From Pseudomonas sp. RIT409 (GTDB lineage: Bacteria; Pseudomonadota; Gammaproteobacteria; Pseudomonadales; Pseudomonadaceae): a DNA stretch of 64,000 bases. The stretch lies in contig NZ_QARE02000011.1 in NCBI RefSeq assembly GCF_003052515.2, positions 1 to 64,000 of the forward strand, read 5' to 3'. Below, piece after piece: positions 7,683-8,449 of this stretch (position 1 is its first letter; each line of letters opens with the position of its first letter). The notes under the pieces are model-generated. The model ran no database searches. It was not told where the DNA came from and saw nothing but the letters and a program-made list of their open reading frames with translations. The position numbers and the translations under genes are program-made.

Positions 7683-8063
7683 AACGCAACTTCCGTACTG
7701 GTTGATGAAATCGCCACCCTGCCGAAGCTGGCGCCAGTACACGGTATTGGGTTCCCCTGTGCCTCAACAGTTGAAATATTTCATCCCGCCGGTTCCCGGG
7801 TGCGCAAAAGTTGACGCCATCGATCGTGATCAATGACTTTACAGTCACCGAAAAATGTATCGCCCACGCAACGTCGGGAAATTGGCTTCGTGAACGCCGC
7901 ATCCAGACGGCTTCTCCGGCAACCCAGCCCCACGAACGCGCTTCGCTCAACTATCAATGGCGGCGATGATCGCTACCACTCGTATTGACTTCTTAATGAT
8001 TCGGCGCGGCGTAACATCACCTCCATACCGAGTCACCCACTACCGACTTCTGGAGCTACCGAC
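7683..8063. other. Intergenic region between divergent genes
   Basis: A 381-base gap with no supportable gene. It must carry the promoters of the acyltransferase gene (leftwards) and the repeat protein gene (rightwards). An imperfect ANR/FNR-like site (TCGAT-N4-ATCAA) lies at 7820-7833, and a TTGACT at about 7986 lacks a well-spaced -10. I see no strong regulatory site. Confidence 0.4.
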
Positions 8064-8396
8064 ATGAACACTCAAAAACTGATCCTGGGCCTGGCCTTCT
8101 CTGTACTGGCAACCGGCGCGTTTGCACTGCCCACTGTCCACGGCACCAGCGCCGTAGCGGAAAACGGTTCATCCCATACCCACATCGAGCGCGTGGCCGC
8201 CGATGGCGCGGACCGTGTAGGTGCCAATCGCGTGGCTGAAAACGGCTCCGATCGCACCGCTCTGGGTCGCATCGCTGCCGACGGCGCGGACCGTGTAGGT
8301 GCCAATCGCGTGGCTGAAAACGGCTCCGATCGCACCGCTCTGGGTCGCATCGCTGCCGACGGCGCGGATCGCGTAGGTGCCAACCGCCTGAGCTGA
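8064..8396 (+). CDS. Small secreted protein of six 13-residue repeats
   Basis: 110 residues: a signal peptide (MNTQKLILGLAFSVLATGAFA, cut before LP), a short linker to residue 31, then exactly six 13-residue units and a final serine. The consensus unit is A-[AE]-[DN]-G-[AS]-D-R-x-x-x-x-R-[VIL]; alternating units read AADGADRVGANRV and AENGSDRTALGRI. The first unit (AENGSSHTHIERV) is the most divergent. The mature protein would be small, hydrophilic and periplasmic or secreted. A ribosome binding site is seen at GGAG, upstream of the ATG. I recall short AEGGSDR-repeat proteins in other pseudomonads, some labelled phage infection protein, but no established function. Confidence 0.75.
   Translation: MNTQKLILGLAFSVLATGAFALPTVHGTSAVAENGSSHTHIERVAADGADRVGANRVAENGSDRTALGRIAADGADRVGANRVAENGSDRTALGRIAADGADRVGANRLS
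8205..8360 (+). repeat. Two identical 78-bp tandem repeats inside the repeat-protein gene
   Basis: Bases 8205-8282 and 8283-8360 are identical, and a third, diverged partial copy continues from 8361 to about 8391. Each 78-bp copy encodes two 13-residue units, so duplication or loss of a copy keeps the reading frame and changes protein length by 26 residues. Confidence 0.9.
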
Positions 8397-8420
8397 TCTT
8401 TCCGCCCCCAGCCCCTCCCA

Positions 8421-8449
8421 GCCCGGCCTTTGCCGGGCTTGATTTTTCC
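8421..8449 (+). terminator. Intrinsic terminator of the repeat-protein gene
   Basis: A GCCCGGC / GCCGGGC stem with a four-base loop is followed by TTGATTTTT. It lies 25 bases after the stop codon. Confidence 0.8.

Follow-up and report, generated by a model that had tools for sequence, protein, structure and literature searches.

What does a small, apparently exported protein made almost wholly of tandem 13-residue units do for a pseudomonad, and what governs its production? The gene that raises this question lies in a 64,000-nucleotide stretch of Pseudomonas sp. RIT409 DNA, the whole of which we call the window. Its product belongs to a known but nearly unstudied kind. PA4881 of P. aeruginosa is reported to be a tandem-repeat protein under MexT (PMC3557286), and its function is described as unknown (PMC3557286, PMC8466533). 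The informative fact about the window gene is its shared MexT-type promoter. We propose, with a probability of roughly 0.6, that its product is a secreted and probably flexible repeat protein, belonging to the MexT regulon and active in the envelope when oxidants or electrophiles cause stress.

The features of the gene are collected in Table 1. A 31-residue leader followed by six 13-residue units and one serine, the layout given by the first-pass annotation, accounts for all 110 residues in that register. The units come in two flavours, AADGADRVGANRV and AENGSDRTALGRI, which alternate, and the DNA therefore repeats with a period of 26 residues, or 78 bp, at 95% matches by TRF. Copies 8199-8276 and 8277-8354 share 77 of their 78 bases, and an exact self-match of 86 bp at an offset of 78 (8205-8290 and 8283-8368) contains the two identical 78-bp copies noted earlier, their register shifted by a few bases. 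Leader-like starts occur throughout a 41-row family alignment, and export of the window protein is strongly indicated by its sequence. From the stop codon to the terminator-like hairpin is 24 bp, and a T run follows the hairpin; because the same scan would yield 0.9 such hairpins by chance in this 1 kb, the evidence for a terminator is the place of the hairpin after the stop. The neighbours of the gene are an acyltransferase-3 gene of opposite orientation and, downstream, a gene for an HBM-type chemoreceptor. In three syntenic orthologues (L042, L044 and L045), the acyltransferase and repeat genes are separated by an extra gene, which we take to be of the RclC/DUF417 type; no such ORF is listed there for the window.

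Table 1 Features of the repeat-protein gene and its putative promoter in the window
Feature	Position	Strand	Basis
LysR-type box ATCA-N7-CGAT	7953..7967	+	perfect match to MexT nod-box ATYA(N7)YGAT
Putative weak -35 element TTCTTA	7990..7995	+	22 nt after box; register common to orthologues and most family promoters
Putative -10 element TAACAT	8012..8017	+	16-bp spacer; same basis as -35 element
Ribosome-binding site GGAG	8052..8055	+	GGAG kept in 7 of 7 aligned syntenic genes
Repeat-protein gene, 110 aa	8064..8396	+	ORF call; codon-level conservation
Predicted Sec signal peptide MNTQKLILGLAFSVLATGAFA	8064..8126	+	judged from sequence; putative cleavage site
Six 13-residue units, two alternating flavours, then LS	8154..8387	+	
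78-bp DNA tandem repeat, 2.5 copies, with 86-bp exact self-match	8199..8396	+	TRF
Intrinsic-terminator-like hairpin, then TGATTTTTCC	8420..8439	+	hairpin scan

The window gene is one member of a widespread family. Four more members occur in its own genome: a tandem pair on contig C45 (154 and 159 aa), a short and weakly matching 85-aa ORF on C11 (E 5.8e-4), and a gene on C57 (L004; G000:C57:231874-232827; L010:3806-4924) of 342-372 aa, its start being uncertain, with 20 units by our search expression and a non-repeat C-terminal tail. A genus-level search matched 143 of 149 genomes, the own genome among them, and the nearest named orthologues among the matches listed are from Pseudomonas sp. 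SLFW, Bc-h and UBA1879 and from P. abietaniphila, the named relatives among those matches being nearly all Pseudomonas. At the level of the order, 4 of 194 genomes matched, all four in the window's genus. This is an undercount, because another query matched 45 of 119 genomes of the taxonomic family (10 of 19 genera) and a PA4881-type query matched 24 of 25 genomes of a sister genus (that of genome G422); G241, G269 and G316, for example, match the latter query though they are matchless in the order-level search. Over 189 distinct units, a set defined by a search expression that fixes Gly and limits other positions, the consensus is [VI]-A-[EA]-[DG]-G-[AS]-D-R-[TV]-G-A-N-R. Distant members keep a core, A-[EDA]-[NDG]-G-[SAF], at periods of 14 residues (L125, L127), 18 and 21, once 22 (L122, L123), or 25-26 (L124). 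That the core is constant while the period varies suggests that function resides in the core. Crude clustering of the neighbour genes of 32 family loci gave no obvious partner gene; the largest cluster, chemoreceptors at 8 loci, comes mostly from the syntenic ones, and smaller clusters recur.

The upstream regions of these genes also resemble one another. An alignment of syntenic orthologues reveals a conserved block of ~100 bp before the gene, and the same block recurs, in register, at many paralogues from unrelated loci. A sigma-70 consensus scan found no promoter upstream of the window gene because the -35 element is weak; the promoter in Table 1 came from the orthologue alignment. We described the block by the pattern ATYA-N7-YGAT-N22-TTYTTA-N16-TANNAT (18 scored positions), which was written after inspecting the sequences and of which the box alone had been published as a consensus, and scored it in 65 members drawn from 61 loci among the first 85, picked by script for having enough 13-spaced cores and including related species that are not independent. 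The other 24 loci were duplicates, contained the same genes in a different cut, or failed the filter. At most 4 of 18 mismatches were found in 54 of the 64 members with enough upstream sequence, and in these 54 the box, lying 103-126 bp 5' of the start, is perfect in 30, has one mismatch in 23 and two in 1. By comparison, 9 of 1280 Markov-1 shuffles reach 4 mismatches or fewer and 51 of 1280 reach 5 or fewer, whereas none of 165 upstream regions of neighbouring ORFs (called crudely, some spurious) has 5 or fewer. The ten misfits are L024, the related L052-L056, L073, L070, the own-genome C57 paralogue (7 mismatches) and L032, which misses from its scripted start and has 2 mismatches from a later one. 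Most family members thus have one putative promoter in a fixed register.

Across the whole own genome, the pattern occurs 14 times with 3 mismatches or fewer, against 6 times for a backwards control. The only match with no mismatch is the window gene and the only one with a single mismatch is the C11 paralogue; the C45 paralogues are one of two matches with 2 mismatches and one of ten with 3. The remaining ten matches are unassigned or due to chance. Two matches with 3 mismatches precede genes for small leader-bearing proteins (L139 and L133; G000:C34:340333 and C4:84081), which possibly belong to the same regulon or are chance finds, since the backwards control also yields matches.

Which regulator, then, would act at this box? 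MexT is reported to bind nod-boxes of the form ATYA(N7)YGAT (PMC11432991), the part of the family pattern that was published beforehand; counting the second half-site as well leaves the window box with 2 of 13 mismatches (GCTAC instead of AYYAT). In a published RNA-seq table of genes lowered by mexT deletion in PAO1, at OD 1.0 and with RhlR-core genes filtered out, PA4881 stands first at log2 -6.5, ahead of mexF at -6.4 and mexE at -6.3 (PMC12607905), and four further sources group it with mexEF-oprN or MexT (PMC3848899, PMC4521719, PMC10848761, PMC5700673). The window's genome has the corresponding genes, which we name by similarity and position. A MexT orthologue on C15 is 82% identical to the LysR gene beside mexE in G422, and an oxidoreductase gene adjoins it in the position of mexS, which is reported to be adjacent to mexT (PMC11432991). 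A mexE orthologue lies on C57, with 70-71% identity to the sister-genus gene that adjoins mexT; ~100 bp before its start is a box that departs from the consensus at 1 of 13 positions (L142:726). The best boxes at three other pump loci have 2 to 3 mismatches.

The sister genus extends the comparison. Repeat genes there are often paired. In 19 of 20 loci, the first gene is preceded at 110-113 bp by a box without mismatch (0 of 13), the twentieth (L162) having only 40 bp of upstream sequence; the corresponding distance in the window is 111 bp to the ATG. An earlier consensus for MexT reads ATCA-N5-GTCGAT-N4-ACYAT, and one sister-genus promoter (L159) agrees with it exactly. Boxes of the second genes have 2 to 3 mismatches in 16 of 17 cases and none in one. 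The full pattern fits less well: the 19 first genes have 3 of 18 mismatches in one case, 4 in four and 5 in fourteen. Across genera, the apparent box and its distance are common, the -35 and -10 elements only loosely so. Because the -35/-10 register is loose there and absent at the own-genome mexE (7 of 18 mismatches), it counts against reading the block as a MexT promoter and lowers our confidence slightly. Control of the window gene by MexT is strongly inferred.

A LysR regulator other than MexT, either a MexT-like paralogue or a PA2206-type protein, would imply a different stimulus. The own genome has three MexT-like LysR genes (C15:36613, C39:6992 and C57:186394; 82, 70 and 60% identical to G422 mexT), so the regulon may be split, and the second or third of these could be the one that acts here. 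In P. syringae 1448A, the MexT motif is given as ATN11AT, and the same motif is given for eleven regulators including MexT (PMC11957545); PA2206 is reported to bind the PA4881 promoter as well (PMC3557286). Against this stand the place of PA4881 at the top of the MexT regulon table (PMC12607905), the identity of the family box with the MexT nod-box and the similar box before mexE. We regard control by another such regulator as possible, if unlikely.

Control by MexT bears on function, since a shared MexT-type promoter points to stress defence for the family. Electrophiles are among the stimuli of MexT. A review lists HOCl, HOBr and HOSCN as inducers (PMC8466533). No increase in peroxide susceptibility is reported for PA4881 in PMC3557286, which counts against a simple role in H2O2 defence.

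How the array has been maintained bears on function too. We compared the window gene (L001) with six genes that have the same flanking genes, leaving out L043, whose protein is identical to that of L012. Array length differs between species in 13-residue steps, from 6 to 13 units: 6 in L001 and L012, 8 in L042 and L045, 9 in L044, 10 in L041 and 13 in L013. The first-pass annotation had suggested variation between strains; the variation is present, and with one genome per species it is variation between species. Expressed as uncorrected proportions, over unit pairs that are neither independent nor in every case positionally equivalent, pS and pN of the commoner, AADGADRVGANR-type units are 0.604 and 0.034 between the seven genes (564 pairs) and 0.344 and 0.030 within genes (102 pairs, 3 identical in DNA), whereas the rarer AENGS-type units give 0.56 and 0.179 between genes and 0.374 and 0.142 within them (2 of 30 pairs identical in DNA). 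The leader gives 0.242 and 0.059. Codon conservation in relatives, which had been proposed as a check on the gene, is evident for both unit types, pN lying below pS. The reading frame is real, and the units are maintained at the protein level, the commoner type most strongly. They are also partly homogenised in DNA, within-gene pS of the AADGADRVGANR-type units being lower than between-gene pS. Recent duplication or gene conversion, offered earlier to explain the identity of the DNA copies, is thus part of the explanation but not its sole cause, because purifying selection also acts on the units.

These results weigh on the view that the product is a surface or extracellular protein, such as an adhesin, a matrix component or an antigen-like protein, whose length is varied for recognition and whose stress control is incidental. 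A signal-peptide-like leader, a tandem array that ranges from 6 to 13 units over the seven syntenic genes and the several family matches held by many genomes would all suit such a protein. The commoner unit, however, is near-invariant (pN 0.034), not diversifying; the crude neighbour clustering, which used no domain annotation, brought no anchor or secretion partner to notice next to the family genes; and the shared promoter links most members to a stress-type regulator. We therefore consider recognition at the surface an improbable primary role.

The composition of the protein is also informative. The mature sequences of 65 members (8535 residues, the leader cut by a simple rule, and the repeats making residue counts far from independent) contain no Cys and no Trp, with 0.20% Met, 0.18% Tyr, 0.53% Lys and 12.2% Arg; 156 neighbouring ORFs of at least 250 aa have 1.14% Cys, 1.32% Trp, 2.0% Met, 2.1% Tyr, 2.9% Lys and 7.1% Arg. 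Cys and Trp are absent from 65 of 65 members and from 189 of 189 distinct units. A secreted chain without oxidisable side chains, under an apparent oxidant-stress regulator, suggests an envelope protectant or buffer, and we infer a protective function for the window protein. Structure predictions are of low confidence: an AlphaFold2 model of the window protein has a mean pLDDT of 40.8 and no Foldseek match in the PDB, and a model of the 13-unit orthologue (mean pLDDT 44.5) has strands at 13-residue spacing with low confidence. AlphaFold2 is reported to produce unrealistic beta-solenoids for repeat proteins (PMC11795689), and we therefore set the solenoid-like pattern aside.

We propose the following sequence of events for a MexT-controlled protectant. 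MexT, or a close MexT-like LysR regulator, would bind the ATCA-N7-CGAT box at about -65 and bring polymerase to a promoter whose -35 element is poor, as part of a response to disulfide, nitrosative and hypohalous-acid stress that also includes the MexEF-OprN pump. Sec would export the product to the periplasm or outside the cell as a probably flexible chain rich in Ala, Gly, Arg and Asp, without Cys or Trp and with nearly no Met, Tyr or Lys. The repeated core, A-[EA]-x-G-x-D-R in its 13-residue form, would serve as a short motif, and the number of its copies would set valency or capacity. That number could be altered by slippage or unequal recombination in the DNA repeat, while selection would preserve each unit. 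In the envelope, the protein might then shield or buffer during such stress. As a speculative extension that we hold to be doubtful, the arrays could be sacrificial, oxidation-proof arginine buffers: MexT-induced arrays with 12% Arg, in recurring D-R and N-R pairs, would be cheap, expandable targets on which reactive dicarbonyls or chlorinating species are spent while MexEF-OprN exports small toxicants, copy number setting the capacity. Least probable of all is a polyprotein-like precursor cut after Arg into short signal or antimicrobial peptides, which would fit the Arg that ends 86% of the 189 distinct units and the constant core at periods of 13, 14, 18, 21 and ~26 residues among relatives, but not the first unit that begins right at the leader in L039, L052 and L058, nor the neighbourhoods, in which crude clustering gave no noticeable dedicated protease, modifying enzyme or exporter.

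More broadly, matches in 143 of 149 genus genomes, arrays that vary by species and, for the most part, one promoter suggest that PA4881-like proteins are not just a P. aeruginosa curiosity. In the literature, the primary MexT papers (Tian 2009, Fargier 2012) aside, we found no description of the family outside P. aeruginosa, and nothing on repeat peptides or a 13-residue or tridecapeptide repeat of this family. Genes of the family would serve as markers of the MexT regulon in species other than P. aeruginosa, and what MexT protects against becomes testable through a small, defined group of proteins.

Short Gly/Asp- or Asn-containing tandem units occur in other secreted proteins, including RTX, curli and further structural repeat families. 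The window protein lacks the RTX pattern GGxGxD, and searches of Pfam, NCBIfam, PHROGs and the PDB linked it to no named family and no solved structure with a meaningful score, its two Pfam matches being at chance level (E 0.095 and 0.14, far under the cut-offs); the view that the unit is unlike any nameable repeat is borne out to that extent. Matches of relatives to TetR_N, TIGR03620 and other models were rejected as sums over repeats. For example, one relative (L022:1492-2223) reaches 39 bits with TetR_N, where the Pfam cut-off is 24, without any single stretch being significant, and repeat proteins of this kind may be prone to misannotation.

Another likeness is to PtrA, a copper-induced periplasmic protein of copper tolerance (PMC8872213, PMC7763554, PMC7744410, PMC8531726). 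Its N-terminal domain (NCBIfam NF041599) has a signal peptide and then AEGGxDR, near one repeat unit, in a single copy, whereas the window protein is an array. Because PtrA-like proteins start with this motif after the leader, some relatives match the model: 14 of the 41 aligned do so at E 0.01 or better, scores that summed repeats inflate, unrelated models matching relatives too. The window protein itself has no match, and no match in its own genome exceeds the curated 31-bit cut-off. A common origin of the PtrA motif and the repeat unit is possible. We set a role in copper tolerance aside; the shared motif is short and the window protein is without a model match. PtrA-N matches are numerous per genome (15 in G030) and seem to be of two kinds, one of ~68 aa whose tail is charged or rich in His/Cys, the other of ~110 aa.

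The closest known system is that of PA4881. Its apparent relatives in the sister genus have a leader, tandem repeats with the core VAENGSx, varying length and a perfect MexT-type box, and a bacterioferritin-like gene is present in 10 of the 20 loci fetched; PA4880 is, we assume, annotated as a bacterioferritin. No PA4882-like Tat protein was seen in those 20 loci, and an assignment of the second G422 repeat gene to PA4882 was dropped, since PA4882 has a predicted Tat signal (PMC6085387). The family thus appears to include PA4881 relatives, a link drawn from published wording, the box and the bacterioferritin-like gene rather than from the PA4881 sequence itself. Like these proteins, the window protein has a Sec-type leader followed by tandem units with the core A-[EDA]-x-G, and BLASTP matches it to two G422 repeat proteins at E 3e-6 and 3e-8, values from single comparisons of low-complexity proteins. 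The sister-genus units, however, have 18 residues, or 21 where the gene is the second of a pair, against 13 in the window protein, and the proteins end in a C-terminal tail, VAESGGDxVFDAHLKA, whereas the window protein has no tail and ends in LS. Their locus can adjoin the bacterioferritin-like gene, whereas the window gene lies between the acyltransferase-3 and HBM chemoreceptor genes. These differences in locus and tail argue that the window gene is a relative of the PA4881-type genes, not an orthologue.
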